This document shows, one piece after another, positions 6,119 to 40,978 of a stretch of DNA of 64,000 bases. The notes beneath the pieces were generated by a model, which saw nothing but the letters and a program-made list of their open reading frames with translations, was not told the origin of the DNA and ran no database searches. Origin of the DNA: Jaapia argillacea MUCL 33604 (lineage: Eukaryota; Basidiomycota; Agaricomycetes; Jaapiales; Jaapiaceae); contig KL197736.1 of the NCBI GenBank assembly GCA_000697665.1, forward strand, positions 203,742-267,741. The letters are read 5' to 3'. A program made the translations under genes and the position numbers. Numbering within the stretch: the stretch's first letter is position 1; each line of letters opens with the position of its first letter.

Positions 6119-7263
6119 ATGGCCAAATCTAACATCGATGCCGAAGCTGTTAGCCCTGACGACTTGGTCATCGCGTACGTGGCTTGCCAGCTTATCCACT
6201 CATCTCTGGAATTAACACGAAAACAGAATCATGGGTCCAACGGGGTCTGGGAAAAGCACTGTATGATATCGCTTGTACTGGCCCGTGCGTTCTCTGACAG
6301 AGGAGTAGCTCATCGACACGCTCATGGAGCAGAAAGGCCAGCGATCCGGCACATCGTTGAATTCGTGTACGGACAAAGTTCAAGCTGTTCGAGTTCCCCG
6401 TGATTTAGTGTCGAAACACATCTCCGCCACCCAGAGCCGCGTTGTGCTGGTCGATACACCGGGATTCGACGACACGAAGAAGACGGACACGGAAATTCTG
6501 AAGATGATCGGCAACTGGTTGGCAAAAACGTGAGCGCGTCGACTTCAGATAGTTCGACGAACCAGACACTCAATCCCTAGTGTATAGGTACGGGAATAAG
6601 GTTAAGCTTGCAGGGATTCTCTATCTACATCGCATCTCAGACAATCGCATGTCTGGCTCCCCGCTCAAGAACCTCCGCATGTTTGGGAAGTTGTGCGGAG
6701 ACACTGCCGCCCGTCGCGTTGTACTCGTGTCATCGATGTGGGACAGATTGCAGGACCAGGAACTCGCACGAAGGAGGGAGGCGGAACTGAAGGACAATTT
6801 TTGGAGAGGGATGCTGGACAACGGAGCCAGCATTGATCGTTCCGCCAACTCGTCCGAGTCTGCATGGCGTATCGTCCGCAAAGTTGTCCAGAATAAGGAA
6901 GAACGGGAAGCGCTTTTACTGCAGGAGGAAATGGTGGATCTCCAGAAGCATCTCAACGAGACCGAAGCCGGAAAGGCACTTTACACCACCCTTCAGAAAC
7001 TCCTTTCGGAGCAGAAGGAAACCATTCGCCTGCTTGCCGACCAGGCATCCCAGGCCAATCCAGAAGTGGCGAAGGAGTTAGAAGCAGAACATGCACGTCT
7101 TCAGAAGGAGTTGGACGCTACATTCGTCGAAATCAAGCGGTTGAAGATCCCTTTCGGAAGGAGAATCATGATGTTCTTCAAGTTCAAGAAAGCCCGTGGG
7201 GTGAGTTCTACCTCTATCGTCCGTCTTCGCGTCGATCTGACTTTCATTCAGCGCGCCGTCTAG
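6119..7263 (+). CDS. Single G-domain P-loop GTPase, family member 3 (intact)
   Basis: The model joins 6119..6174, 6227..6260, 6309..6529, 6588..7200 and 7252..7263, giving 311 residues in frame. The N-terminus is short. G1 is GPTGSGKS at residues 22-29, alone on a 34-nt exon, and G3 is DTPGFDD from residue 79. The family segment LYLHRISDNRMSG and a G4-like SSMWD follow. Residues of roughly 215-290 form a charged, heptad-like helix rich in E, K, Q and L, ending in a basic patch (KRLKIPFGRRIMMFFKFKK). The last exon adds only R-A-V and a stop. The gene has the conserved 250-bp upstream module. GTP binding is inferred from motifs; no substrate or partner is known. Confidence 0.85.
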
Positions 7264-12615: not shown

Positions 12616-14565
12616 ATGACCATATCCTATTCACCCCCGGAGGACATTTCTCCCGAAGACTTGATTATTGCGTATGGGCTTTTTCAAATAATCGAACTCT
12701 TCGACAGTACTGACGAGACTAATCCAGAGTTATGGGTCCCTCGGGATGTGGAAAAAGCCATGTATGTTATTCCTTGCCTGTGCTCGCCCAAATTCTGACC
12801 ATTTACTAGCTCATAGACACACTTATGGAGGAGACAGGATCCGAGAACAAACGATCCGGCGATTCGCTGGACTCATCCACGAATAAGGTTCAAGCCTTTC
12901 GAGTCCCTTCCCAGCTGTCAACCCTCCACCTTCACGACAACGTAGCGGCAAGGGATAGTGTTGTCTTGGTTGATACGCCATGGTTTGACGATGCGCAGAA
13001 AACTGACATGGAAATTCTGACAATGATTGGCGATTGGCTGAGATTGACGTGAGCTCTGTCTCAGTTATCACAGCTTGCGATCTACTCACCCACGCTTAGT
13101 TATCAGAAGAACGTCCGACTTGCTGGGATACTTTATCTGCACCGCATTTCAGACAACCGCATGTCTGGCTCGCCACACAAGAACCTCCACATGTTTGGGA
13201 AGTTGTGTGGAGACACTGCCGCCCAGAGTGTGATTCTAGTGTCGACGATGTGGGACAGAGTCGGAGAATCGATGGCAGAGAGTAGGGAGACACAGTTGAT
13301 TGGGACATATTGGAAGGGTATGCTGGATAATCATGCGAAGACTGCGCGCTTCCATAACTCGCTTGATTCCGCTTGGGGCATCATCGACCAAGTCGCGGAG
13401 AACGCAGCAGATAAGGAAGCATTCAGGAGGAAATGGTCGTCCTTCAAAAGTGCCTCAATGAGACCGAGGCCGGCAAGACGCTTTATAGTTCCCTCCAGAA
13501 CCTACTTTCGGAGCAGAAGAAGAATTTTCGCATGCTCACCGACCAGGCAGCGTCCCAGGGCAAATCAGAGCTCGCAAAACACTTGGAAGCCGAATGCGAT
13601 CGGATTCAGAAGGAGTTGAACGCTACATTCACTCAAATCAAACAGCTGAAAATCCCATTAGGAAAGAGGATCCTCATGTTCTTCACCTTCCAGAAAGCCC
13701 GCGCGGTGAGCTGCACTCGTTTCTACCTCACTTTACCTCGGGCTGACTTTCCGCCAGCGCCCCATTCATGTTCCCCGGGTGGAGGTTCGTAAGCGAAAGG
13801 ATATGGCCATTGCGTGAGTGGGATCGTCCGCGTGCTCGCGCCTGGCTGACAGGAAAACTAACCGCCTTCTCGGATAGGTTATTGGGTGCGTCGGGCTCTG
13901 GAAAGACTTCGGTGAGAGTCGTTTTCCATGATTGAAATGATTGGAATTATGTGTAGTCACACGAGTCCACAGTTCGTTAACTGGGCTGGCGTGGCTGGCG
14001 AGCTCCCAAAGGTTGGGGATGACAGTTTGCAACCCTGCACGTCGGAAATTGCGTCACACAAGCTCATGGGAGATCGTGGGTTTGACATTGTCTTGGTCGA
14101 CATACCTGGCTTGGGCGACGCAAAGGAAGCTCTAGATGAAGTGTATCTGTGGCTGCAAGAGAAGTACACTCATCTACATCGCTGTTGTTTTTTCACTTGC
14201 CCATGTTTCTTTGGCTCTTCAGGTACGGCGCTGGATCTGCACTCAGCGGACTCATCTACTTTCACAACATCACCGACAAGAAGCTCACATATTGTTCAAC
14301 CGATAATCACCCAAGGTTTCATAGACTCTTGGGGAAAGGGTGGTTCGAAAAGGTCGTTATTGTCACGACCATGTGGAATGAATCCGAGCAGGGATATTTG
14401 GACGATGAGGACGAACTTCAGCGAGAGAAGGAATTGAGGGGACACTGGGAAAATATGCGTCCGCAGACTGAGAAATCGGGAGCCGTTATGTGCCGATTCC
14501 AAAAGACCAAGGCATTAGCTCGCAAAATCCTCGAAAACTTGACGAGGTCCTCGGACACTTGGTAG
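12616..14565 (+). pseudogene. Dual G-domain gene, family member 4, broken by a 7-bp deletion
   Basis: Exons are 12616..12671, 12728..12761, 12810..13048, 13100..13705, 13758..13813, 13878..13911, 13973..14163 and 14223..14565. Domain 1 has GPSGCGKS on a 34-nt exon, but its G3 reads DTPWFDD, losing the invariant glycine. Around 13,421-13,424 the sequence is 7 bp shorter than in paralogues, which shifts the frame. Exon lengths total 1,559, and adding the 7 bp restores a multiple of three. Without it translation ends at 13,619. Domain 2 downstream is still open: GASGSGKTS on its own 34-nt exon, VDIPGLGD as G3, and VTTMWN. It would be reached only if the upstream frame were intact or a separate transcript were used. 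Domain 2 has no usable ATG before its first beta strand. Confidence 0.72.
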
Positions 14566-18258: not shown

Positions 18259-19413
18259 CTAGACGGCGCGCTGAAGGAAGGTCAGATCGACGCAAACACG
18301 GATGACAGAGCGATAGCTCACCCCGCGAGCTTTCTTGAACTTGAATAACAAGATGATTCTCCTTCCGACCGGGATCTTCAACCGCTTGATTTGGACGAAT
18401 GTAGCGTCCAACTCCTTCTGAACACGTGCATGCTCTGATTCCAACTGCTTCGCCAGTTCTGGATTGGCCTGGGATGCCTGATCGGCAAGTAGGCGCCGAA
18501 TGGTTTCCTGCTGGTCTGAAAGGGCTTTCTGAAGGACAGTGTAAAGTGCCTTTCCGGCTTCGGTCTCGTTTAGGCGCTTTTGAAGATCCACCAGTTCCTC
18601 TTGTAGTAAAAGGACTTCTCGAGCTTCTTTGCTCCTGACAACTGTGTTGACAATTTCCCATGAAGAATCGGTCGTGTTGTGGAATCGAGCATAGCTGGCT
18701 CGGTTGTCCAGCATCCCTTTCCAAAAATTGTCCCTCAGTTCCACCTCCCGCTTTTCTGCCGTACCTGGGTCCACTGTGTCCCACATCGTCGACACTAGGA
18801 CGACACGGTGAGCGGCGGTGTCTCCGCACAACTTCCCAAACATGCGGAGGTTCTTGTGGGGGGAGCCAGACATGCGGTTGTCTGAGATGCGATGGAGATA
18901 GATAATCCCCGCGAGTTTAACCTGCTTCTTGTACCTATACACCGAGAGTCAAGTTCGCCTGGCAGTCTGAAGTTGTTGGCCTCACGTTTTTTCCAACCAG
19001 ATGCCGATCATATTCAGAATATCCATGTCCGTCTTGTTTGTATCGTCGAACCCCGGAGTATCGACCAATACAACACGTTCCGTTGTGCCCGGGAGGTGTC
19101 TCGTCACCAACGCAGGGGGCAGTTGAACAGCCTGAACTTTGTCCGTACACGATTTCAGCGATTTGCCGGAGCGTTGGTCCCTGGTCCCCTTCTGTTTCAT
19201 GAGCGTGTCGACGAACTACTCTGCGGTCAGCAAACGTATGAACCAGTGCGAGCGATATCATACATTGCTTTTCCCAGAACCTGTTGGTCCCATGATTCTG
19301 TTGTTGGGGTTAATCTCATAACTATGAACGTATTGATGATTCGAGCAAAGCACGTACGCGATGACAATGTCGTTAGGGATAACAGCTCCAACGTCGATGT
19401 CGGATTTGACCAT
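18259..19413 (-). CDS. Single G-domain P-loop GTPase, family member 5 (intact)
   Basis: From the 5' end the exons are 19413..19358, 19297..19264, 19215..18986, 18934..18322 and 18270..18259, giving 314 residues in frame. The architecture equals that of the gene at 6,119: a 34-nt exon with GPTGSGKSN, then G3 VDTPGFDDT, IIYLHRISDNRMSG, a G4-like STMWD, a long charged helix with LNETEAGKALYT and SEHARVQKELDATFVQIK, and a basic hydrophobic end. The last exon again adds only R-A-V and a stop. Serine after GK is present, but the following residue is asparagine. This is the intact counterpart of the broken copy at 34.2-35.4 kb. Confidence 0.85.
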
Positions 19414-20159: not shown

Positions 20160-20440
20160 ATGAATCATGGTTTCACCAGGGCATGGGAAACTTGAGGTGT
20201 GTAGGTTGTCTCTTTCATTTCCCAAGTATGCGATCTCTGACCACGAAGCAGCTAATGATCGATCAGACAAGGTTCACGCTGCTCGGATTCTAGCTACCTC
20301 GGTGAACCTTCACGCTCCGGCAGTCGATGATCAGATCATGATCGTTGATACGTCGGGTTTGAGGACGGTTTCGAATGAGGAAGATGAAGATGCAGATAAC
20401 CTGAAAATCACTGGCTCCTGGTTGGGTGGCGGGAAAGTGA
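20160..20440 (+). pseudogene. Relic of a G-domain gene 5' part
   Basis: A decayed frame reads MVSPGHGK where the P-loop would be. It continues with DKVHAARI (compare CTDKVQAVRV in intact genes), then MIVDTSG in place of VDTPG, and ends near GSWLGGGK at the position of the GNWLAKT splice site. The remaining domain is missing. Relics with the same wording occur near 29,555 and 36,240, so this is an old paralogue copied with the flanks. Confidence 0.6.
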
Positions 20441-20504
20441 GAACAACTAGATGTCTACGCGAAAGGTTACATGTGCTAACATGATTTGCTAGTGGACCGT
20501 TGAT

Positions 20505-20760
20505 TGACTGATGTGCGGACATAAGAGCTCCACCTCACCTTCAAGTCGCCGTATCCTTCTTGTGCCATGATAGATGAAGCAAGTGTCTCCACGAGCCTTT
20601 GAAGGAACACCTTACCCGGTGCGGGAAAGGCGTATCCTCGTATTCAAGTACTCACTCGAACCACCAATTGTCTTCGCACTTGACGTACTCAGAATACTTT
20701 CTCTCCGGACTAATAGTGCTGCACATCGTCATCTTCCCCGACGTACAGTGATTCTCAGCT
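20505..20760 (+). promoter_or_regulatory. Conserved upstream module of G-domain genes, copy 2
   Basis: This segment ends at the ATG at 20761 and aligns with 5,862-6,118 and 30,228-30,490. It begins at GCTCCACCTCACCTTCAAG and includes TATTCAAGTACTC, CTTGACGTACTCAGAATAC, CTAATAGTGCTGCACATCG and GATTCTCAG. Its conservation in front of intact and broken copies fits block duplication as well as selection. Confidence 0.5.
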
Positions 20761-22433
20761 ATGACCATATCTGACGTCGATGTCGAAGCTGTTAGCCACG
20801 CTGACTTGGTCGTCGCGTACGTGCTTTGCCAACCTATCAACACATTTATGGGATTGACAGGACAATAGAATCATGGGCCCAACGGGGTCTGGGAAAAGCA
20901 ATGTATGATGGCGCTTGTACTGGCCCTTGCGTTTTCTGACAGAGGAATAGCTTATCGACACGCTCATGGAACAGAAGGGGACCGGGGACCAACGATCCGG
21001 CAATCCGCTGAGATCGTGTACGGACAAAGTTCAAGCTGCTCGACTGCCTCCCGCGTTGGCGGAGAGACACCTCCCGGGCACAGCGAAACGTGTTGTATTG
21101 GTCGATACTCCAGGGTTCGACGACACAAACAAGACGGACATGGATATTCTGAACATGATCGGTGCCTGGTTGGCAAAAACGTGAGCACATAGATTTTATA
21201 TAGTTTGACGAAACAGAGACTCAATTCTCAGTGTATAGGTACAAGAATCACGTCAAACTTGCAGGGATTATCTTTCTCCATCGATCTCAGACAATCGCAT
21301 GTCTGGCTCGCCGCTCAAGAACCTCCGCATGTTTGGCCAGTTGTACGGAGACGCTGCCGCGCGCCGCGTCGTACTCGTGTCATCGATGTGGGACAAAGTT
21401 GCCCGGGTCTCGCGCAAAAGAGGGAGACGGAACTGAAGGATAATTTTTGGAAAGGGATGGTGGATAAAGGAGCCGGCGTAAACCCTGTGGGGTGAGTTCT
21501 ACGTCACTCTACAGTGTACTGTCTCACCCTAACCTTCCGCCAGCGTCCCGTCCATGTTGACCGTAGGCGCGCGATCATTGCGTGAGTACGACCATCTGCA
21601 TGCTCGTTGGATAAGATGCTTAATCGTCCTCTTGGATAGGTTGGGCACATCAGACTCTGGAAAGAGTACGGTGAGAACCTTTTCCATGATGGAAAAAGCT
21701 GCAACCATCCATGCTCACACCAACCGACAGTTCGCCAACTGGGCTGGAGTGGCTGGTACACGCCCGAAAATTGGGGCCGGTATCTCGCCCCGCACGTCAG
21801 AAATCGTTTCATATAAGCTCAGGGAAAGTCGCGCCGATGACATCGTCTTGGTCGACATACCTGAGGGCGATGCGCTGTTTACTGCTCTACTATGCTTGAA
21901 GGATTGGCTCAAGACGAAGTATACCTATCCCATCGTTTTTTCCTTTTATCACTTGTTCATACCTTTGTTTCTCGTTCAGTTATCCTGGTGTTCCTCTCGG
22001 CGGACTTTTCTATTTTCACAAAACCACCGATAACAGACTCACGTACATCTCCCAGAAACCGGCTGAGAAAGAATCTCCTGATCGAGGTTTGTTTCATCTA
22101 CTCTTAGGGGATGACTTCTCCAGCAAGATCGTTATCGTTACGACCATGTCGAATTCCACAGCGGGAGAACGGCGAGACGCAGGAGAGGTGGAACTGGCGA
22201 AGGAATGGAAGGATAAACTGGGGTGGAGTCTCACCATTCGCCCCTTCCAAGAAACCAAGGAATCAGCTAACCAAGTCCTTGACACCCTCGATGATCTATG
22301 TCGAGGAAATATCACCAACCGAAAGAAATCTCGGAGCGTTGGTGTTGGTTATCGCTGTTTCCTGACTCTGTTATTTTCCAAAGGACTTTTCTGTCTGCAT
22401 ATACGCTTTCGATATCTATTTTCTCATCAGTGA
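20761..22433 (+). pseudogene. Dual G-domain gene, family member 6, decayed
   Basis: Recognisable exons are 20761..20816, 20869..20902, 20951..21180, 21239..21491, 21544..21581, 21640..21670, 21731..21918 and 21980..22433. Domain 1 begins normally (GPTGSGKSN, VDTPGFDDT), but one base is missing near 21,284 inside LHRISDN, which shifts the frame. About 350 bp encoding the whole coiled-coil region have been deleted at about 21,480, joining the sequence directly to the next intron. In domain 2 the 34-nt P-loop exon has shrunk to 31 nt and reads TSDSGKST, G3 reads VDIPEGD, and the rest (VTTMSN and following) is open. The intact relative is the gene at 30,491-32,408, with which it shares upstream and downstream flanks. 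Confidence 0.75.
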
Positions 22434-22695
22434 CCGGGTGTCGCATCTCAAAGTCGTTGGATTGTATGTGTTCGTTGTAGTAACACATATTCTTGATCGC
22501 CATTAATATTAACCAGCGAACCTGAATCCCATTTTATAACTCCAATAAACACTCCGTCCACCCAGGCTCAGGAAGGTTTGGGTAAGCATCTCGCTTGCGA
22601 CAATGTCGGTGCCTACATTTCCACGGCGTCTACGGAACATCTCAATTCCACCTCTTCACTCCACCTATTCAAGACCAACCAAATCCCCTGCCGAT
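22434..22695. other. Duplicated 3' flank between dual G-domain gene and BCP1 copy
   Basis: No gene is present. The stretch aligns with 32,413-32,770 and, in part (GGGTGTCGCAT, GTCTCAAAGTCG blocks), with 37,230-37,290 upstream of the intact BCP1 3' end. It is therefore part of duplication unit B. Confidence 0.5.
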
Positions 22696-23875
22696 TACCC
22701 AGCATCAACATAAACCTTTCCCAACCCCCTCACCAACCCCTCAAACTTACCAGCTGGTACGAGCATGATTTTCGTACTCAGCTCGAGGCCAAAACTTTCT
22801 GATGTGCGGGGTGTAGAGGTTGGGGTTGAGAAAGTGTATGTTTAGGATGCGTACTATGTTGCGGATTAGTTTGAATTGGGGGATGGGGAGAGAGGAAATA
22901 TGTTGGGGTTTGTAACGGGGACAAAGGGAGATCACAAGGGAGCGGAGCGGTGGGGGAGAACAAAGGCAGGACGGTACACTAACCTTTTCGATTACCTCAT
23001 CCTCGGAATGAAAGCTAAAGACGCCACCTCCTTCTCCTCCACTCGATAAACTAGGTCTTAGTTTCTTGCTTTTATTGTTGCGAGAGGAAGAGTTTGGTTG
23101 GGAGGAGAGGAGGAGTTGGGCTTCTTCGTGTGAGGGTGAGATGAACAAGAGGTGTGTGAATGTGTACGGTTCGTTCTGGTGCGAAGTTGATTAGTCCATC
23201 GAGAGATGGGGAGGTGAAGGTGGAGGAGTGACGAGTGGGGGAAGAGTACTCACGTCGTCGATAGCCCATTTGATCTCGCCGACCAACATCCTATACATAT
23301 GCGGAACGATTTGGACTGGCATGTTGATGAGCCTTTCGGATAGGACTGGGCCTATGTGCTGTGAGGGGTTGGCGTTTGGGCCTAGGATGTTTTGGAGAGT
23401 TGTGTGGAAGGAGGGGTTTGTGGGTTGTGATTTTGAGAGGAGGAGGGAGGTTAGGGCTTGGATTGATGGGTGATCCTGTACCGAACATGCCTTCAGTGAA
23501 CATAACACCGAAATACCCATGGAGGACACACCTTATGAATGGTCATGTTCAACACAGTGAGGATGGCGTAAGGATCTCCCTCCCTCCCATCCATCTTGAC
23601 GGTAGTCCCAACGAGTGGTTGACCGAGAATCAAATCGGTGAGGGCTTCGGGGTAGAGAGAGGGAGAGGAGGAGTGGAATAGTTCGGAGAGTAGGTTACGG
23701 ATTGCATGATAGTCGATTTGGGGATTTGCAAAGTCTACGTTGATGAGGGACTACTGGGAGGTGGATGTGAGTGTGGAAAGTGTGGAATAGCAAGGAGAGG
23801 GCGTACGACGTCTGAATCGCTGTCTTCGTCCATGTCGACATCCTGTTGTTTTCGTTTTGCCACGGACCATGGTGG
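22696..23875 (-). pseudogene. BCP1 pseudogene, copy 1
   Basis: All five exons of the intact gene at 37,523-38,653 can be aligned. The first codons carry a 7-bp insertion that shifts the frame. Exon 2 has lost 12 bp, removing the conserved FEFFDP-type motif. Exon 4 has a 12-bp in-frame deletion. Exon 5 has a CAA-to-TAA change at 22,842-22,844. Exon 3 is still open, and splice sites are mostly kept. Confidence 0.85.
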
Positions 23876-24120: not shown

Positions 24121-25221
24121 ATAAATGTATTTTTCAACAAAAATTTCACTTTTTGGAGATCTAGGGACTTTTCACGGGATAATGCTATCCAGAAACCCCA
24201 GTTTCTGCTGGAAACCCGAGAAACCGCTAAGTCAACGAAAGCTGAGCAAAGTCAGGGAGGGTTGCTGATCCCGAAATCCAGGGATTTCGGGCGGTGTCAA
24301 GCCCGAGGGCGCCTAGTTCTAGCCGAGGAAGACTGATGCCGGTATTAGCCGAGAAGCGCCAAAGTGCGAGAGCCTGTTGGCAATGACATGAACGGCGGCG
24401 AAATAGTCGCGCTCATCGTCGGAGACGGCGGCTGCTGCTTTTTTATTTTTATTTTTATTTTTTACCGAAAATCAAGAAATTGGAAGCACCATTCCTCGCG
24501 TTATCATTAATTATATAATTTAAATTAAATTGTTTTATTTTTGACGTTGTCTCTAACGACGAGCGCGACTATTTCGCCGCCGTGCCAACCGACGTTCATA
24601 TCATTGCCAACAGGCTCTCGCACTTTGGCACTTCTCAGCTAATACCCGCATCAGTCTTCCTTGGCTAGAACTAGGCACCCTCGGGCTTGACACCGCCCGA
24701 AATCCCTGGATTTCGGGATCAGCAACCCTCCCTGACTTTGCTCAGCTTTCGTTGACTTAGTGGTTTCTCACTTAACCCGGGTTTCCAGCAGAAACTGGGG
24801 TTTCTGGATAGCATTATCCCTCCATGTTGGCAGACGAGGTAGAATCATTCAGAGACTTCGGTGTCGATGCTTGTTGGAAGCACCCTATTGACACCACCTG
24901 AATTTTCTGAAAAAAGTATTTCGATATTATAAGTCTAAAACAGGCTCTCATCTTGCCTAAAGTGGCCATTGGGTCCTCAAAATGGTTCAAACGCGTTGCA
25001 AGGAAAATTCCAGTTCAGAAAAAGTATCAAAGGATGGGTTGAGGGCCTCTGTTACGTTGCTGTAGTGATGATCCGTCACGTGAAAGTATCAAGGAGCGAC
25101 GCAGCTGCTGATGTTGTTAGTGAGAAGTTGAAAGTTGAACATGGAGGGTCGAAACAAGGGTCGAAAGTTATCGAATTCCCTGAAGTTGGATACAGGAATA
25201 TTTGATGAAAAATACTGTCAT
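24121..25221. mobile_element. Non-autonomous element with TIRs inserted in the PUT1 copy
   Basis: Comparison with intact PUT1 exon 1 defines both junctions. The flanks are ACCCGTGT on the left (24,113-24,120) and ACCCCTGT on the right (25,222-25,229), an 8-bp target duplication with one mismatch. The ends are imperfect inverted repeats of about 27 bp sharing GTATTTTTCA and CAAA. The element is 1,101 bp, has no convincing transposase frame, and contains the long foldback at 24,178-24,831. An 8-bp duplication suggests hAT-type mobilisation, but the terminal bases are not CAG...CTG, so the superfamily is uncertain. Confidence 0.75.
24178..24831. repeat. Long foldback (inverted repeat) with AT-rich loop
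   Basis: The left arm (24,178 to about 24,430) and right arm (about 24,552 to 24,831) are reverse complements with few differences. The outer 40 bases, starting GGGATAATGCTATCC and ending GGATAGCATTATCCC, pair perfectly. The roughly 120-bp loop is AT-rich (runs of T4-5A and TTAATTATATAATTTAAATT). It is either the core of the surrounding element or a second MITE nested in it. Confidence 0.85.
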
Positions 25222-29554: not shown

Positions 29555-30185
29555 TGATCGATCAAGCAAGGTTCACGCCGCTCGGGTCCCAGCAAAGTAA
29601 CCTTCACGTTCCGGCTGTCGATAATCAGATGGTGCTCGTTGATACATCGGATAAGGCCCAAGGCCGCATGCGCGGCACAGCCTGCTACCTTTCAAAAACA
29701 AAACAAGCCGAAGAGGATTGCTAGTAGATGCATTCATATCTATTTAGTACAACATGTCGCAGCGTGGTATTAGACGGAACGAATGCCTGAGATGAGTTCA
29801 AATCAGCAAGGCGACAACGCCAAGTTCCTGAGACTTGATTTAGACTACGAGGTTTGGGAAAAGGGGGTAAAGGAGTTAACCAGCTGGAAATAATGCTAGG
29901 AGTCAGTCGAATCAATGGGATATATACCACAAGTCCAAAGACAGTCATAGGAATTGTACAGTGAAAGGTGTGGCAGTCAGAAAGTGAAAGCGAATCAGAA
30001 GGGAAAAGCCGAAACTCAGACACCAACCCTAAATCGAATCAATTGGATCGCAGGAATGATAGAAAACTTGACAGGATACATCAGTGTAAACCCGCTACCA
30101 AGGTAGCGGGAATTTGAGGACGCGTTCGAATGGGGGACGCGAAAATGATTGGCTTCTGGTTGGGCGGCGAGAAAGTGAGCACAAC
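29555..30185 (+). pseudogene. Relic of a G-domain gene, split by a 456-bp insertion
   Basis: The frame KVHAARVPAK and a degraded VDTS segment (29,555-29,650) correspond to the relic at 20,160-20,440. The continuation (MIGFWLGGEK-like, about 30,130-30,185) is displaced by about 456 bp of unrelated DNA. Downstream DNA continues collinearly with 20,430-20,760. Confidence 0.6.
29651..30106. other. Insertion relative to the paralogous segment at 20.35 kb
   Basis: Alignment of GATACATCGG | TTGAGGACG-type sequence with 20,346-20,366 shows about 456 extra bases here. The insert has no clear terminal repeats or open frame. Near its right edge lies the perfect hairpin CCCGCTACC-AA-GGTAGCGGG at 30,091-30,110. 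Confidence 0.6.
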
Positions 30186-30227
30186 CAGAAATCTACCCTC
30201 ATGGATACACGCTCATAACATGCTTTG

Positions 30228-30490
30228 GATCGTTGATTGATTGATGTTCGGAGACAAGAGCTCCACCTCACCTTCAAGTCGCCATATCCTTGTGCCATGA
30301 CAGGTGAAGCAAGTTTGTCTACACGAGCCTTGAGGGAACAACCCACTGTGGTAAAGGCATGTCCTCATACTCAAGTATTCGGATGACCCATTGACTTCGC
30401 ACTTGACATATTCAGAATTCTCGGGCGTTCTCGGTGGACCAATAGTGCTTTGCATCGCCCATCTTCCCCAACGAATACCGATTCTCAGTT
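30228..30490 (+). promoter_or_regulatory. Conserved upstream module of G-domain genes, copy 3
   Basis: This segment ends at the ATG at 30491 and aligns block by block with 20,505-20,760 and 5,862-6,118, including GCTCCACCTCACCTTCAAG, CTTGACATATTCAGAATTC, CCAATAGTGCT and GATTCTCAG. Confidence 0.5.
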
Positions 30491-32408
30491 ATGTCCAAAT
30501 CTGGTGTTGATGTCGAAGATGTTAGCTCCGACGACTTGGTCATCGCGTACGTAGTTTGCCAACTTATCAATACGTTTATGGGATTAACACGACAATAGGA
30601 TCATGGGCCCTACAGGGTCTGGGAAAAGCAATGTATGATGTCGCTTGTGCTGGTCTGTGCGTTTTCTGACGGAGGAGTAGCTCATCGACACGCTCATGGA
30701 GCAGAAGGGCCAACGATCCGGTAACCCGCTGAGATCGTGTACGGACAAAGTTCAAGCTGTTCAACTGCCCCCTGCATCCGTGACGAGATACATGCCCGCA
30801 ACCGGGAAACGCGTTGTGCTGGTCGATACACCGGGGTTCGACGACACGAAGAAGACGGACGCGGAAATTCTGAAGATCATCGGCAACTGGTTGGCAAAAA
30901 CGTGACCGCGTCGACTTCAGATAGTTCGACGAACCAGACACTCAATCCCTAGGGTATAGGTACGGGAATAAGGTTAAACTTGCAGGGATTCTCTATCTAC
31001 ATCGCATCTCAGACAATCGCATGTCTGGCTCCCCGCTCAAGAACCTCCGCATGTTTGGGAAGTTGTGCGGAGACACTGCTGCTCGCCATGTCGTACTCGT
31101 GTCATCGATGTGGGACAGAGTGGACCTAGGTGTCGCGCTAAAGAGGGAGACGGAGTTGAAGGAGAATTTTTGGAAAGGGATGCTGGACAATGGGGCCAGC
31201 GTTGATCGTTTCACCAACTCGCCCGCGTCTGGATGGGAAATCGTCCGCAAAGTTCTCCACAACAAAGACAATTCGGAAGCGCTTTTACTGCAGGAGGAAA
31301 TGGTGGATCTCCAGAAGCGTCTTAACGAGACCGAAGCCGGAAAGGCACTTTACACTGTCCTTCAGAACCTCATTTCGGACCAGCAGAAAGCCATTCGCCT
31401 GCTTGCCGACCAGGCATCTCAGGCCAATCCGGAGCTGGCGAAGGAGTTGGAAGCGGAGCACGCACGTCTTCAGAAGGAGTTGGACGCTACATTCAAACAA
31501 ATCAAGCAGTTGAAGATTCCCCTCGGAAGGAGAATCATGATGTTATTCAAGTTCAAGAAACCTCGTGGGGTGAGTTCTACGTCACTCTACAGTGTTCTGT
31601 CTCGTTCTAACCTTCCGCCAGCGTCCCGTCCATGTGGACCGTAGGCGCGCGATCATTGCGTGAGTACGACCATCTGTATGCTCGTTCGATAAGAAGCTTA
31701 ATCGTCCTCTTGGATAGGTTATTGGGCACATCAGGCTCTGGAAAGAGTACGGTGAGAACCTTTTCCATGATTGAAAAAGCTGCAACCATCTATGCTCACA
31801 CCAGCCGACAGTTCGCCAACTGGGCTGGAGTGGCTGGTACACCCCCGAAAATTGGGTCCGGTATCTCGCCCCGCACGTCAGAAATCGTTTCATATAAGCT
31901 CAGGGAAAGTCGCGCTGATGACATCGTCTTGGTCGACATACCTGGGGGCGATGCGCTGTTGACAGCTCTACTATGCTTGAAGGATTGGCTCAAGGCAAAG
32001 TATACCTATCCCATCGTTTTTTTCTTTTTATCACTTTGTTCATACCTTCTTTTCTCATTCAGTCATCCTGGTGCTCCTCTCAGCGGACTTTTCTATTTTC
32101 ACAAAACCACCGATAACAGGCTCACGTACATCTCCCAGAAACCGGCTGAGAAAGAGTCTCCTGATCGAGGCTTATTTCGTCAACTCTTAGGGGATGACTT
32201 CTCTAACAAGGTCGTTATCGTTACGACCATGTCGAATTCCACAGTGGGAGAACGGCGAGATGCAGGAGAGATGGAATTGGCGAAGGAATGGAAGGATAAA
32301 CTGGGGTGGACTCCGACGATATCCCCCTTCCAAGAAACCAAGGAATCAGCTGACGAAGTCCTTGCCACTTTCGATGATCTCTGTCGAGGAAATCTCACCA
32401 ACCCATAG
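30491..32408 (+). CDS. Dual G-domain P-loop GTPase, family member 7 (intact)
   Basis: Eight exons join 30491..30546, 30599..30632, 30681..30901, 30960..31569, 31622..31659, 31718..31751, 31812..31999 and 32063..32408, giving 508 residues in frame. Domain 1 has G1 GPTGSGKS (residues 22-29, private 34-nt exon), VDTPGFDDT, LYLHRISDNRMSG, SSMWD and the long charged helix. Instead of the R-A-V stop of the single genes, the next exon encodes RPVHVDRRRAIIA, which supplies the first beta strand of domain 2. G1 of domain 2 (GTSGSGKS, about residues 323-330) is again on a 34-nt exon, followed by VDIPGGD as G3, LSGLFYFHKTTDNR and VTTMSN. The coiled coil therefore lies between two G domains. Catalysis is inferred only, and domain 2 has a changed G3. 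Downstream lies a BCP1 pseudogene. Confidence 0.83.
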
Positions 32409-32770
32409 TGGTCTCGGAGCGTTGGTGTTGGTTACTGCTGGTTCCTGACTCTGTTGTTCTCCAAAGGACTTTTCTGTCTGCATATACGCTGTCGATATCT
32501 ATGTTCTCATCAGCGACCGGGTGTCGCATCTTGGACGGTCTCAAAGTCGGTGGATTATATGTTCATTGTAGCAACACATGGACTTGATCCCCAGTTATGT
32601 TAACCAGCGAACCTGAATCCCAGTTTATACCTCGAATGAACACTCTGTCAACCTGGGCTCAGTCGAGGGAAGGGTTGGATAAGCGCCTCACTTCCGACAA
32701 TGTCTACGGAACATCACAATTCCGCCACTTCGCTCCTCCGCCTATTCAAGACCGCCGAAATCCCCTACCG
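32409..32770. other. Duplicated 3' flank, no gene
   Basis: This stretch aligns with 22,434-22,695 and belongs to duplication unit B. Confidence 0.5.
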
Positions 32771-33783
32771 ATCACCCACCAACAACATAAACCTCTCCCA
32801 ACTCCCTCATCAACCCCTCAAACTTGTCAGCTGGTACGAGCATGACTTTCGTACTCAGCTCGAGGCCGAAATCTTCTGCTGTGCGGGGTGTGGAGGTTGG
32901 GGTTGAGAAGGTGTATGTTTGGGATGCGTACTGGTAGGATGTTAGTTCGGTTACATGGAAGGATGGGGAAGATAGTGGGGGTTGTAACGGGGATAAGGGA
33001 AATCAAAAGGGAGCGGAAGAGTGGGGGACAACAAAGGCAGGGCGCAATACTAACCTTTTCAATTACCTCCTTCTGCTCCACTCCGTAAACTAGATCTTAG
33101 TTTCTTGCTTTTATTTTTAGGGGAGGAAGGGTTTGGTTGGGAGTGGAAGACTTGGACGACTTCTTGTGTTAGGGTGTAGGTGCGGGAGATGAATAAGAGA
33201 TGGGTGAGCGTGTATGGTTCGTTCGGCGGCGGGGGTCAGAGGTAGTATATGAGTGGGGGAAGGGCACTCATATCGTCGATTGCCCATTTGATCTCGTCGA
33301 CCAACATCCTATACATGTGTGGAACGATTTGGACTGGCATGTTGATTAGTCTTTCAGATAGGGCTACGCCCATGTGTTGTGAGGCGTTGGCGTTTGGGTC
33401 GAGGAAGCTGTGGAGGGTTGTGCGGAAGGAGGGGCTTGTGATTCGTGATTTTGAGAAGAGGGGGATAGTTAGGGCTTGGGTTGATGGGTGTTCCTGTACC
33501 GTAGTGCCCTCGCTGAACATGATCACCAAAAGACCCATAGAGAGCACACCTGATAAAGGGCCATGCTCAAGACGGTGAGGAAGGCGTAAGGATCGCCCTC
33601 CCTCCCGTCCATCTTGACGGTAGTCCCAACGAGTGGTTGACCGAGGATCAAATCGGTGAGGGCTTCGAGGTGGAGAGGGAGAAGAAGAGTGGAATAGTTG
33701 GGAGGGGAGGTTACGGATTACATGGTAGTCGATTTCGGGATTTGGGTTGAAGAATTCAAAGTCTATGTTGATGAGGACTATTG
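32771..33783 (-). pseudogene. BCP1 pseudogene, copy 2
   Basis: Exons 2 to 5 of BCP1 can be aligned. The first exon is missing: homology stops at the exon 2 acceptor near 33,783. Exon 2 keeps FEFFNPNPEIDYH but has lost 2 bp near 33,680, shifting the frame. Exon 4 is heavily degraded around 33,070-33,230. Exon 3 (MPVQIVPHMYRMLVDEIKWA) remains open. No PUT1 sequence follows. Confidence 0.82.
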
Positions 33784-34238: not shown

Positions 34239-35381
34239 CTAGACGGCGCGCTAAAGGAAGGTCAGATCGACGCAAACACGGACGACATAGCGATAGTTCA
34301 CCCCGCGAGCTTTCTTGAACTTGAATAACATCATGACTCTCCTTCCGAAAGGGATCTTCAAACGCTTGATTTGGACGAATGTAGCGTCCAACTCCTTTTG
34401 AAGACGTGCGTGCTCCGCTTCCAACTGCTTCGCCAGTTCCGGATTGGCCTCGGATGCTACCTGTTCGGCCAGCTTGCGAATGGTTTCCTGCTCGTCCGAA
34501 AGGAGTTTCTGAAGGAGAGTGTAAAGTGTCTTTCCCGCCTCCGTCTCGTTGAGACGCCTTTGGAGATCCACCAATTCCTCCTGTAGTAAAAGCGCTCCCC
34601 GTTCTTCCTTATTCTGGACAACTTTGCGGACGATATGCCATGCAGACTCGGGCGAGTTGGCGAAACGGTCGACGCTGGCTCCATTGTCCAGCATCCCTTT
34701 CCAAAAACTGTCCTTCAGTACCGCCTCCCTCTCTTGCGCAACAGCTGGGTCCACTTTGTCCCACATCGATGACACGAATACGACGTGGCGGGCGGCAGCA
34801 TCTCCGCACAACTTCCCAAACATGCGGAGGTTCTTGAGCGGGGAACTAGACATGGGATTGTCTGTGATGCGATGTAGATAGACAATCCCTACAAGTTTAA
34901 CGTCATTCCCGTACCTATACACTGAGAATTAAGTGTCAGGTTCGCCAAACTATCTGAAGTCGTTGTGCTCACGTTTTTGCCAACCAGTCACCGATCACTT
35001 TAAGAATATCCATGTCCGTCCTGTTTGTATTATCGAACCCCGGAGTATCGACCAACACAACGCGTTTCCTTGTGCTCTAAAGGTGTCTTGCCACTAACGC
35101 AGGGGGCACTTGAACAGCTTGAACTTTGTCCGTACACGATTTCAGCGATTTACCGGATCGTTGGCCTTCCTGCCCCATGAGCGTGTCGATGAGCTACTCC
35201 TCTGTCAGAAAATGCATGGGCCAGTTCAAGCGACAACATACATGGCTTTTCCCAGACCCCGTTGGACCCATGATTCTGTTATTGGGTTAATATAAACGTA
35301 TTGATAATTCGAGCAAAGGACGCACACGATGACAAGGTCGTCAGGGCTAACAGCTTCGACGTCGAGGTCAAATTTGGCCAT
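34239..35381 (-). pseudogene. Single G-domain GTPase, family member 8, with a premature stop
   Basis: Exons from the 5' end are 35381..35326, 35275..35242, 35193..34973, 34914..34302 and 34250..34239. Lengths total 936, as in the intact gene at 6,119. A TAG at 35,077-35,079 replaces the proline codon of the PG segment before G3, and G3 itself reads DTPGFDN. The P-loop GPTGSGKSH is on the usual 34-nt exon, and the 3' part is intact to the R-A-V stop. The single nonsense codon suggests recent loss or, less likely, an assembly error. Confidence 0.78.
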
Positions 35382-36545: not shown

Positions 36546-37522
36546 TTAATTTAAGAGAATGCGAGGAACGAGCATGAGCGGAAATGGTGGTCTACATGCA
36601 GAATTTCCTGCCTCTTCCGTCAAAATTTCAGTCACCCACTACTCGACTCCCAGCAGCTTGTCTTGTTTCTGGGCCCGCCACTCCCTTCCTTTAACGGCCA
36701 ACACTTCACATCTTCACTGGCTCTGGTTCGGTGACTCGACGTATTCTCTTTGCGATCTGAAGAGGTCTCTAATAGCATAGGCTGCTTGAGCCCACCCGCC
36801 CATATCACAGTTCATATCAGACTTTCTCCTCCTTAGATCCGGGCAGATGTTTCTGGTCGAACAACCGTTAGGGTTTTTGTCCATGCTCGCCTTGCTTGTC
36901 CTCACACCACACTCGCACACCCTCACACATTTGTACCACAATTATCATGATATGATTGAGATTGCTCGTGAGACTCGTAACTATCGCAGACGTTGACCAG
37001 ATATCTTGCTCGTCAAGTCGATTTATACATGTGTGAACAAAAGTCCAACTGGCCAGGACCGTTTGTTCAAGCTGGTTTCCTTCGGAGCCTTGTGTGATCA
37101 TTTCACCGAATATCCACTTTGGAGGTTTATTTCAGTGGGTTTCTTGGGATGGACACCTAGCCAGAACCTCGAATGTTGGGTCGGGATTGGGAGGACGCAG
37201 CCTTGAGTTCTGCTGAGCCACGAGGAGGATCACCGACTGGGTGTCGCATTCCGTCCATGAAGGTCTCAAAGTCGGTAGACGTCTGTTCGTCGAATAGCCA
37301 ATATAACTGGTTAACCATGGATCTCAATGATCCTAACAGACGAACTTAACCCCCAATAACCAATCGGCCAACCATTCTCGTAACCACCGCATATTTCAGC
37401 CAAGCAAAGGGTTGGAGAAGCGTCTCGTATCCAACAACAATAATACATACATCTTCACAGCACTTCAATCCCCCCCCCCTGTTCCTGTACTCGAGACGAC
37501 CTAAACCCAAAATTCATCCCCA
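36546..37522. other. Intergenic region before the intact BCP1 gene
   Basis: No gene is supported. From about 37,225 it shares blocks with the 3' flanks of the two dual G-domain genes, marking the parental side of unit B. Confidence 0.45.
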
Positions 37523-38653
37523 TCACCCACCAACAACATAAACCTCTCCCAACTCCCTCACCAACCCCTCGAACTTGTCAGCTGGTACGAGCATGACTTT
37601 CGTACCCAGTTCGAGACCGAAATCTTCTGCTGTGCGGGGTGTGGAGGTTGGGGTTGAGAAGGTATATGTTTGGGATGCGTACTGGGGGTTTGTTGGTTCA
37701 GTTAAATTGGAAGCATACGGAAGATAGTGGGGGTTGAAACGGCAGGACGGCACACTAACCTTTTCGATCACCTCATCCTCTGGGTGAAAGCTAAAGACTC
37801 CTCCACCCTCTGCTCCGCTTGGTAAACTAGGTCTTAGTTTCTTGCTTTTGTTTTTACGAGAAGAAGCGTTTGGTTGGGAGGAGAGGAGGAGCTGGGCTTC
37901 ATCTTGAGTTAGGGTGTAAGTGCGGGAGATGAATAAGAGATGGGTGAATGTGTATGGTTCGTTCTGTTGCGAAGTCGTTAGTTCATCGATAGATGGGAGG
38001 GAAAGCATAGAAGGACATGGGAAGGGAACTCACGTCGTCGATAGCCCATTTGATCTCGTCGACCAACATCCTATACATGTGTGGAACGATTTGTACTGGC
38101 ATGTTGATGAGTCTTTCGGATAGGACTAGGCCTATGTGCTGTGAGGGGTTGGCGTTTGGGCCTAGGATGTTTTGGAGAGTTGTGTGGAAGGAGGGGTTTG
38201 TGGGTTGTGATTTTGAGAGGAGGAGGGAGGTTAGGGCTTGGATCGACGGGTGGTCCTGTGGCCTCAGTGAATATGACATCAAAACACCCATGCAGAGGAC
38301 GCACTTTATGGACGGCCATGTTCAAGACGGTGAGGAAGGCGTAAGGATCTCCCTCCCTCCCATCCATCTTGACCGTAGTGCCAACAAGTGGTTGACCGAG
38401 AATTAGATCGGTGAGAGCTTCGAGGTGGAGAGAGGGAGAGGAAGAGTGGAATAGTTGGGAGAGGAGGTTACGGATTGCATGATAGTCGATTTCGGGATTT
38501 GGGTCGAAGAATTCAAAGTCTACGTTGATGAGGGACTACTGGGAGGTGGATGTGAGTGTGTGGAAAGTGTAGAGGAGTAAGAAGGGGGCGTACGACGTCT
38601 GAATCGCTGTCTTCGTCCATGTCAACATCCTGTTGTTGTTTTCGTTTTGCCAT
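37523..38653 (-). CDS. BCP1: BCP1/BCCIP-family protein
   Basis: From the 5' end the exons are 38653..38594, 38535..38305, 38255..38034, 37963..37760 and 37681..37523, giving 291 residues in frame. BCP1 is an essential nuclear protein in yeast, linked to nuclear export of Mss4 and to chaperoning of ribosomal protein Rpl23; BCCIP is the animal counterpart. The sequence shows a Lys/Arg/Gln then acidic N-terminus (KRKQQQ, DEDSDSD), the diagnostic FEFFDPNPEIDYHAIRNLL, LINMPVQIVPHMYRMLVDE and a Lys/Arg patch (RKNKSKKLRPS). It is divergent from PUT1 across about 200 bp. It is the only undamaged copy of three in the window. Confidence 0.93.
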
Positions 38654-38854
38654 GGTGGATGTGTAGTGGATTCGAATGATAGTTAGCACGGTAAAAGTCA
38701 AAAGATATGGTGTACCAAAAAGGAAATGATGAGTAGCCGACGGAGGACGGGAAACGAGCCGGAAGGAACTTGGCTTGTTCGTCGGCTGTAAGCCTGGGGA
38801 AAGGGGAGGGTATAAAAAGGAGGTCTGTCGTGAGTGGTGTTATCGTTATCGAAC
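38654..38854. promoter_or_regulatory. Divergent BCP1/PUT1 promoter with TATA box
   Basis: Only 201 bp separate the two start codons. TATAAAAA at 38,811-38,818 lies about 40 bp upstream of the PUT1 ATG. A comparable block is present in the duplicated copy at 23,876-24,073. Confidence 0.65.
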
Positions 38855-40978
38855 ATGTCGTTGAGGCATCTACTAAGACCATTGCATCTGCAGACCCGTG
38901 TCCCACTCTCATCCCATCGCAGACTCGCCCGACTCACACTCTTCGGCGGTGCTCTCCTCGGAACGACGCTGTATCTCTCCGCCAAGTCCCCGCTCTACGC
39001 AGACAATGACGAACACGACCCCAAACAGAAAACCCCCAACGTCTCCCTCGGTTCCCTGATTCGCTCCTATGCTGTCTACTCAATGTGCTCCATCCCCGCC
39101 TTGGTCGACGCAAGCCCCGCCATCTTGAAAGCCTTCACTTCTGTACCCGGGTTGAAGCAGGTCACAGAGGCAGTCGTGAGGGTCACTTTCTTCGATCAGG
39201 TTTGTCGGTCCCCTCTCCCATCTCATTCTCTCCCTTACTTACCCCCTCCCTCCCTCCCTCCCTCAGTTTGTAGGAGGCGACACAGCAGAAGACTGTCTCC
39301 CCCTCCTCGCCTCCTACCGTGCCCAGAACAAAGGCGTCCTATTCGGTTACAGCGTCGAAGTCGATGAATCAGCTCCCACTCCCGCTCCCTCTTCCACTCA
39401 CGAAGAGGATGTACCAATCCACAAACGAATCGTAAAGGAGATGATCCACTCTATCGACGTAGCAGCCGATTTTGAGGATAGATATGGGAAGAGGGATGGG
39501 AGAGGGAGGAAGACTTGGGTTGCTGTCAAGTTGGTGAGCAACTCGAGTCTTTGGTTTGTACCCCCCAGCCCCTCATTGACTTCTTCCCTCCCTCCCTCCC
39601 CCTTTCCCTCAACGGATATATGCGCATAGACCGCACTCCTCCCAGACGCACAAGCCCTAATCAACTTCTCATCCCACCTCGTCAAATCTCGTCCCAACTC
39701 ATACATCCCCTTCCCAGGCTGCCCACACCCAACCGACCTAGACATCCTCTACTCCCCATCCCCAGAATCAAACTTGCGTCCGGAAGATATCAAAGCCTTG
39801 AAAGAGTTGGATCAGGATTTGGTTGCTATTTGTCAGAGGGCGCAGGAGAGGGGTGTTAGGATTATCATGGACGCTGAATATTCTTGGTATCAGGTGGGTT
39901 TCTCACTTGCTTGATCTCTGAGTTGAGCTGATGGTGTTGTGGTGGGTTGTAGCCCGCTATAGACGCATACGTCCTCTCCCTCACTCGTCGGTTCAATAAA
40001 TTGGATGGAAAGGAAGCAAAAGGTCAACCCGTCAGACCCCTCGTATACCAAACCTATCAAGCTTATTTACGAAGGTCCGCTCTCTTCATGCCTTCCTCCC
40101 CTAGTCCTCCCCAAACTAACTTTGCGCTCCGCCAGAACCCCAATGTACCTATCCCACTCTCTCAAAAACGCCAAAGCAGGAAACTACGCTCTAGGCGTCA
40201 AACTCGTCAGAGGCGCTTATCACCCACACGAAATGGCCGCTCATCCTTCTTTACCCTCCCCTCCTACTTCCGGTTCAACACAATCGGCGGAGATGGAGAA
40301 ATCACACTCGTTGTCGATCTCACCTGACCCGCTCCCACCTGTTTGGTTCTCGAAAGAACAGACTGATGATTGTTATAACAAATGTGCCAAACTCGTTCTC
40401 GCGGAAATCAAATCGGACCTCTCTCCCACCCAAACACGTTCATGGTGGCCCGCTAAATCCAAGCCAACGGGAACGGAGGTGCCGAGGATAGGCGTATTAT
40501 TCGGAACTCATAATTGGGAGAGCTGTAAATTGATTTTGGGGCAGATGGTACAGGGTGGGTTGGCAACAAGTGAAGGAGATGTGGTGAGAGTTGGTGAGGA
40601 GGTTTGTGAGAGGGTTACTATCGCTCAATTATATGGTACGTTCTTCCCCCTTTTCTTTCCAAGAGAGGATGGCCGCTGATGGGGCAATGGAATGGGGGCT
40701 TTTTTGTAGGGATGAGTGATGCACTTACGGATTATTTGGTGGGGAGGACTAGGTCGGACGTCCCCCTTGTTATGAAGTATGTACCGTATGGTGCGCTATC
40801 TGAAGTGAGTGTCCCTCCTTTGGTTGGTTTGTTCTCGCGTATTGATGATGTGTTGGTGTAGGTCATGCCGTATCTTAGTCGACGGGCGATAGAGAACAAG
40901 AGTGTGCTTGGGAATGGAGGCGCTGCTGATGAGAGGAGGAGAGCTGGAGCTGAGATTTGGAAGAGGGTGTTTGGGTAG
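38855..40978 (+). CDS. PUT1: Proline dehydrogenase, mitochondrial
   Basis: Seven exons join 38855..39199, 39267..39533, 39630..39893, 39953..40074, 40136..40635, 40710..40804 and 40862..40978, giving 569 residues in frame. The enzyme is an FAD-dependent oxidase of proline to pyrroline-5-carboxylate, the first step of proline catabolism. The N-terminus is Arg/Leu-rich without acidic residues (mitochondrial presequence), followed by a hydrophobic stretch (LTLFGGALLGTTLYL). Family motifs include IMDAEYSWYQPAIDAYV, VYQTYQAYLR, GVKLVRGAY, GTHNWES and the C-terminal VPYG...MPYLSRRAIEN that binds the flavin and substrate carboxylate. A Ser/Pro-rich insert follows the GAY motif. Introns 1 and 2 contain CCCT-type runs. 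Confidence 0.95.

Follow-up and report, generated by a model that had tools for sequence, protein, structure and literature searches.

Two GTPase (G) domains follow one another within about two kilobases of this fungal genome, and the locus raises the question of whether they are read as one spliced protein or as two neighboring genes and, if they share one chain, what the second domain does there. The gene under study (locus E) lies in a window, as we call the whole stretch of 64,000 nucleotides that was analyzed (C28:203742-267741 in a genome of 43.7 Mb), together with its paralogs A, B, C, D and F; the paralogs G and H are found outside the window (Table 1). We rebuilt the gene model from the DNA and found that the eight exons (30491-32408, forward strand) give a single frame of exactly 508 residues followed by a stop codon, as the preliminary description of this DNA had claimed. 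An alternative acceptor for exon 8 at 32084 would give a protein of 501 residues instead. The order along the protein is G domain 1, a helical tail and G domain 2.

Table 1. Exons of locus E and location of its paralogs (window positions, unless a contig is named).
Feature	Position	Strand	Description
Exon 1	30491..30546	+	start codon (ATG) and domain 1 beta-1; the ATG is aligned in A, C, F, D, B and H
Exon 2	30599..30632	+	domain 1 P-loop GPTGSGKSN; phase-2 intron before, phase-0 intron after
Exon 3	30681..30901	+	domain 1 switch regions, G3 DTPGFDD
Exon 4	30960..31569	+	remaining domain 1 (G4 position SSMWD) and helical tail
Junction intron	31570..31621	+	links domain 1 to domain 2; GTGAGT..CTAAC..CAG; GT..AG in 8/8 loci
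Exon 5	31622..31659	+	38 nt; codes for the linker RPVHV and domain 2 beta-1; lacks an in-frame ATG
Exon 6	31718..31751	+	domain 2 P-loop GTSGSGKST; intron phases as for exon 2
Exon 7	31812..31999	+	domain 2 switch regions, G3 DIPGGD
Exon 8	32063..32408	+	remaining domain 2 (G4 position TMSN, no Asp) and stop
Paralog A	6119..7260 (end of DNA match)	+	single-domain; domain 1 and tail, junction intron, stump exon RAV-stop
Paralog B	12616..14565	+	fused; helical tail frameshifted by a 7-nt deletion; domain 2 open
Paralog C	18262..19413	-	single-domain; junction intron and RAV-stop stump
Paralog D	20761..about 22340	+	fused; frameshifted ahead of a deletion that removes the second half of domain 1 and the tail; domain 2 open
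Paralog F	34298..35381	-	single-domain; junction intron; RAV-stop stump just past the DNA match; exon 3 interrupted by an in-frame TAG
Paralog G	C28:177.8-181.8 kb		fused; 1.9-kb insertion in domain 1
Paralog H	C20:490.2-492.1 kb	-	fused, uninterrupted

The seven introns of locus E all begin with GT and end with AG, and a simple branch-site pattern is present in six of them, the exception being 30902-30959. In the junction intron, between the GTGAGT donor and the CAG acceptor, the A of the CTAAC motif lies 11 nt before the end. Alignments read by eye indicate that the GT..AG borders of this intron are kept in all the loci compared (E, A, C, F, D, B, H and G), and those of the three introns inside domain 2 in five out of five (E, D, B, H and G). 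Indels make the length of exon 5 vary (E and D, 38 nt; G, 44 nt; B, 56 nt; H, 59 nt), yet it leaves a remainder of two on division by three in the five loci, so that the joined frame of domain 1 and domain 2 is kept. The intron phases are 2, 0, 2 in domain 1, 0 at the junction and again 2, 0, 2 in domain 2, and the intron positions also match between domains (at the end of beta-1, directly after GKS/T and after WL). These shared phases at the same motif positions show that domain 2 was copied from a gene with the exon plan of domain 1. The preliminary description had also stated that domain 2 has no ATG before its first beta strand. This holds for the spliced reading; an ATG at 31632, within exon 5, nevertheless starts an unspliced frame of 258 residues (ORF 31611-32408) that in E, and only in E, is open through the three domain-2 introns. 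The corresponding frame ends after 159 residues in D, 55 in B, 13 in H and 9 in G, so the 258-residue reading is not conserved. Retention of the junction intron would yield a single-domain product of 331 residues ending at a TAG, and this product could be a real minor form. The claim that one spliced protein carries both G domains is upheld by the conserved junction intron, the remainder kept by exon 5 and the lack of any free-standing domain 2 among the matches described below, and we are highly confident that locus E is one spliced fusion gene.

A search of the genome's own DNA with the locus returned 11 matching stretches, locus E itself included, and protein searches returned at least 25 stretches with domain 2 as the query (E ≤ 1) and at least 55 with domain 1 (E ≤ 0.01). 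Domain 2 proper is present at five loci (E, D, B, H and G) on two contigs, where the stretches of D, B, H and G are 34-82% identical to that of E, and each time there is a domain 1 immediately upstream of it. This rules out that the fusion is unique to locus E, as the same order is carried by four other loci. No free-standing domain 2 was found among the 25 matching stretches, and those outside the fused loci all fall within loci matched by domain 1. Among the fused loci, E and H are uninterrupted and B, D and G are broken in domain 1 or in the tail; decay is common in this group (3/5). The insertion in the domain-1 exon of G (C28:178469-180329) has a final portion of 260 bases that recurs, entirely or in parts, on nine other contigs with 73-86% identity, and the insertion is probably a mobile or repeat element. 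Within the window, positions 20403-23728 and 30141-33744, which carry D and E, respectively, constitute a segmental duplication of 81-87% identity, and parts of it recur at 37519-38901. Many single-domain relatives are located in C28:140-335 kb and in C20, C26, C15 and C4. In the 15 that were read, the P-loop occupies a short stretch of its own, detached from the conserved piece that follows, which would fit an intron after GKS/T. Four single-domain genes of the same genome (I, J, K and L) are 39-42% identical in exon 4.

To place the fusion in time we used a tree of 27 rows, in which domain 1 of D was left out for being frameshifted and domain 1 of G entered as a fragment; loci known only from 25 of the 55 domain-1 match rows stand outside it. 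The domain-2 sequences form one clade with a support of 100/100, and the tree program flagged meetings of long branches between domain 2 of G and those of E and D, and between M and X. For domain 1, the branching order from the outside in is B, H, C, G and (E, A, F), with fork supports, in the same direction, of 98/99, 87/59, 95/93, 94/79 and 85/76. The single-domain genes A, C and F are nested among the fused loci. In three of the four outgroup singles examined (I, J and L) the stop codon comes directly after the tail and there is no terminal intron, and the fourth, K, reads on out of register. A, C and F keep the junction intron followed by a short last exon, RAV-stop, that aligns with the start of exon 5. 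Since they are nested among the fused loci and retain both the intron and this stump, A, C and F look like former fusions that are now devoid of domain 2. The simplest reading is that a single ancestral fusion brought the junction intron and that domain 2 was lost later in some copies, the dual state of the domain-1 ancestor resting in part on moderately supported branches. The AU test rejects one clade of A, C and F (p 0.012), and also one clade of the domain 1 of the fused genes (p 0.009), so it is likely that domain 2 was lost more than once or that gene conversion took place, and conversion may have blurred the order of the domain-1 branches. Also, B and H differ by a dS of 1.24 in domain 1 and only 0.47 in domain 2. 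The two halves of these genes have different histories, perhaps through conversion, to which this inequality also points.

Regarding the family to which the domains belong, a profile of domain 2 (5 rows) aligned with a profile of domain 1 (4 rows) in hhalign with a probability of 99.8 and an E value of 9e-29, which indicates that the two G domains of locus E have a common origin. A P-loop G domain is detectable with the Pfam model MMR_HSR1, which scores 45.4 bits with the 508-residue protein and 27.4 bits with domain 1 alone (cutoff 21.9); domain 2 of E alone just misses this cutoff with 21.2 bits. At an E value of 0.01, three of the five domain-2 copies match MMR_HSR1, two match nSTAND1 and two AAA_29. 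The AIG1 model (PF04548) scores 27.0 bits with the whole protein, at its cutoff of 27, and 24.9 with domain 1 alone, and the Septin model 26.7 against a cutoff of 26.2 with the whole protein and 24.8, below the cutoff, with domain 1 alone. Domain 1 touches AIG1, Septin and Dynamin_N weakly, and its PDB profile matches include septin-3 (E 0.00028) and GIMAP4 (0.017). The PDB profile matches of domain 2 are weak and mixed (GIMAP7, E 0.034), and Pfam searches with the unspliced raw exons gave weak matches only. A KH domain was absent among the best 25 of 59 Pfam families, the chain ending with G domain 2. The best explanation of these scores is that both domains belong to the septin/AIG1 (GIMAP)/Toc class of TRAFAC G domains, domain 2 being a divergent member. 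Between the domains a coiled coil had been proposed. With nine related rows, AlphaFold2 folded exon 4 into three long helices and the second half of the G domain, at a mean pLDDT of 76.9, and the heptad periodicity of this region is not significant (p 0.385), so helical tail is the better term. The tail ends in a basic hydrophobic stretch. A Foldseek search with the exon-4 model gave no match at E < 0.001, the best being GIMAP7 with an E value of 0.09. The AlphaFold2 model of the contiguous domain-2 frame, which includes two in-frame introns, had a mean pLDDT of 37.3 and was unusable.

Domain 1 has the P-loop GP[TS]G[SC]GKS, the G2 threonine, DTPGFDD at G3 (DTPWFDD in B and DTPGFDN in F) and S[ST]MWD at G4. 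The five copies of domain 2 retain a GxxxxGK[ST] P-loop, although in D its inner glycine is gone (GTSDSGKST); the G2 threonine is present in E, D, B and H and absent in G. At G3, domain 2 reads DIPGGD in E, DIPEGD in D, DIPGLGD in B, EVPGLVD in G and DVPGFDD in H. The preliminary description took G3 as the mark of one active and one regulatory or degenerate domain; the motif is indeed strongly altered in E and D and mildly in B and G, but it is canonical in H, and this variability excludes G3 as a hallmark of domain 2. The distinction between the domains finds firmer ground in G4, where the Asp selects guanine. Domain 2 reads TMSN in E and D, TMWN in B and H and NMWS in G at this position; the Asp is replaced by N or S in every copy, a non-conservative change in a motif that contacts the nucleotide. 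In domain 1 it is present in the seven readable copies (E, A, C, F, H, B, and G after its insertion). The Asp is also missing in 3 of the 15 single-domain relatives (N, Q and R). Its absence from domain 2 is better evidence than G3 for a divergent second site, though not proof. In E and D, some 16 C-terminal residues (window about 32360-32408) are out of register with H and G, whose proteins end in PLIxSAEK, and this is consistent with a small indel before the split of E and D.

How could a second domain of this kind work? The G domains of GIMAPs and related proteins commonly pair across their nucleotide faces. Septin G domains do the same, and septin pseudo-GTPases sit at the G interfaces, in the available part of that report (PMC10731463); SMG8-SMG9 is described in the corresponding part of another as a heterodimer of G domains in which one partner does not bind nucleotide (PMC5473137). 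We consider it somewhat probable that locus E encodes a fusion protein with a nucleotide-binding domain 1 and a tethered pseudo-GTPase domain 2. In such a protein, domain 1 would bind guanine nucleotide and switch, and domain 2, with its P-loop kept and the guanine-selecting Asp lost, would be a permanently tethered partner that packs onto the nucleotide face of domain 1. The intramolecular pair would then replace a homodimer for switching, with the helical tail setting the spacing between the domains and its basic end possibly contacting a membrane or another protein. That domain 2 is a pseudo-GTPase partner of domain 1 is a tentative proposal drawn from the motifs, one that falls just short of being probable. 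SMG9 binds GDP despite missing the G4 Asp, according to the portion of the study available (PMC5473137), so the loss of the Asp in domain 2 is no proof of lost nucleotide binding. SMG8-SMG9 and the septin pseudo-GTPases resemble our reading of locus E in associating a degenerate with a nucleotide-binding G domain, but as far as these partial sources describe them the partners are separate polypeptides, and in locus E they form one chain (PMC5473137, PMC10731463).

An alternative explanation is that domain 2 is a decaying passenger: the fusion would be old, with the function fading at E and its duplicate D while the frame survives. In agreement, three fused loci are broken, three single-domain copies lack domain 2 entirely, E and H are 46% identical in domain 2 and 65.7% in domain 1, and the most altered G3 motifs are those of E and D, the latter being also the copy without the inner glycine of the P-loop. 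Against it, the five domain-2 frames are all open through the three introns, and the substitution ratios reveal constraint. We estimated dN/dS by the Nei-Gojobori method with bootstrap limits for 15 domain-1 pairs (tail included, except for B) and 10 domain-2 pairs; the rows include the broken genes B, D, G and F, and for three pairs involving B we discarded 3 to 12 saturated bootstraps out of 300. The ratios range from 0.16 to 0.47 in domain 1, with an upper 95% limit of at most 0.76, and from 0.43 to 0.69 in domain 2, where the upper limit is at most 0.95 and all ten pairs are below 1. The upper limit stays below 1 in the 25 pairs, the ratios being rough as several dS values exceed 0.8. For E and D, the two copies in which fading would be expected, domain 2 gives 0.48 (0.25-0.87). 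Domain 2 is constrained, though more loosely than domain 1, and evolves faster, and we regard a passenger in decay as unlikely, while giving it more weight than the explanations that follow.

It is rather improbable that both domains bind and hydrolyze nucleotide in sequence, in the manner of Der/EngA, a bacterial ribosome-assembly GTPase with two canonical sites and a KH domain, whose G domains are not known to be separated by a long helical tail. Locus E shares with Der/EngA the presence of two G domains in one chain, but these are not both canonical and its best 25 of 59 Pfam families include no KH domain. The P-loop found in the five domain-2 copies, and in H the canonical G3 together with the G2 threonine, would suit two active sites. 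The G4 Asp missing from all five, the G2 threonine from G and the inner glycine from D speak against them, as do the MMR_HSR1 score of domain 2 of E, just below the cutoff, and the match of only three of the five copies at an E value of 0.01.

The preliminary description knew of no named family with this exact layout. The tandem immunity-related GTPases (IRG) of vertebrates argue against a novel kind of protein, since in layout and genetics they are closely similar and also include a canonical unit with a quasi-GTPase, in the accessible sections of two reports (PMC1297648, PMC3810784). The transcripts of mouse Irgb2-b1 and Irgb5-b4 span two neighboring coding units, whose spacer is spliced out, and zebrafish irgg-irgq1 consists of a canonical, truncated unit and a quasi-GTPase with a proposed regulatory role (PMC1297648, PMC3810784). 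As in locus E, there are two related G-domain units per protein, a spacer removed as an intron, which in locus E is read from the DNA, and a cluster of paralogs; the second unit has no autonomous transcripts, which would be a further likeness, and in zebrafish it is a quasi-GTPase, resembling our reading of domain 2 (PMC1297648, PMC3810784, for the parts available). The differences are also clear. IRG units are of about 47 kDa each and typically have one exon in these partial sources, whereas each domain of locus E has the same three internal introns (PMC1297648, PMC3810784). Domain 2 of locus E, unlike the units of IRG tandems, has no helical tail of its own. IRGs are a different GTPase family, hence of independent origin; the IRG model (IIGP, PF05049) is not reached, with 20.8 bits for the whole protein against a cutoff of 24 and 12.3 for domain 1, so the fungal gene is not an IRG and would at most work like a tandem IRG by convergence.

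The mouse tandem Irgb2-b1 blocks the ROP5/ROP18 kinase complex of Toxoplasma, in the section of the report available (PMC3810784), and by analogy the fused protein could be a decoy that binds a parasite or rival effector aimed at the single-domain GTPases of the cluster. The genetics are like those of the IRGs, with a cluster of related GTPases of which a subset is joined via a spliced spacer (PMC3810784, same section), and paralogs are many on C28. However, nothing in these data points to an immune role for this fungal family, and dN/dS is below 1 throughout, though a whole-gene average would hide a few positively selected sites; we find the decoy doubtful. Least credible of all is a pair of genes, the first with domain 1 ending in the retained junction intron (331 residues and TAG) and the second with domain 2 starting at ATG 31632, which we reject on the conserved junction and domain-2 introns, the length of exon 5, the lack of a free-standing domain 2 among the 25 matching stretches and the breaks in the 31632 frame outside E.

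Returning to the fusion protein with a tethered pseudo-GTPase domain, other systems resemble it in part. GIMAP8 belongs to the septin/AIG1/Toc class, which is broadly shared with locus E. Both have several G domains in one chain, of which GIMAP8 has three potential ones, as stated in the available part of its description (PMC4201521), and domain 1 of locus E alone stays under the AIG1 cutoff (24.9 against 27). Among the fungal G proteins with a single domain and a helical tail, which match MMR_HSR1 and, weakly, AIG1, Septin and Dynamin_N, domain 1 with its tail is an ordinary member; this family is possibly like the Sordariales orthogroup OG0000027, judging from the part of that study available (PMC12258605). 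In contrast to locus E, its single-domain relatives have no second domain and, in I, J and L, no terminal intron. In the limited set of open-licence literature, we found no description of this tandem layout in fungi.

The family of locus E offers a clear example of a fusion and its subsequent loss within a single cluster of genes, recorded in a junction intron that is absent in three of four outgroup singles, present in the five fused copies and left as a relic in A, C and F. Should domain 2 be a pseudo-GTPase partner, comparing fused and single copies would allow the role of such partners to be tested within one organism, and the tandem-GTPase layout would have arisen separately in animals and fungi. 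A bolder view, which we consider a long shot, is that this fungal cluster independently evolved the solution of the IRG tandems, a canonical GTPase of immune type with a pseudo-GTPase arm that some copies keep and others have repeatedly shed, and that it may serve in self/non-self recognition or defence against parasites. If this convergence were true, single and double forms of one switch would stand side by side in one cluster. Elsewhere in the window, positions 1-967 contain direct repeats that overlap one another, with a period near 200 bases and 82-87% identity, and 24176-24398 and 24589-24820 form an inverted repeat of about 230 bases with 92.7% identity.
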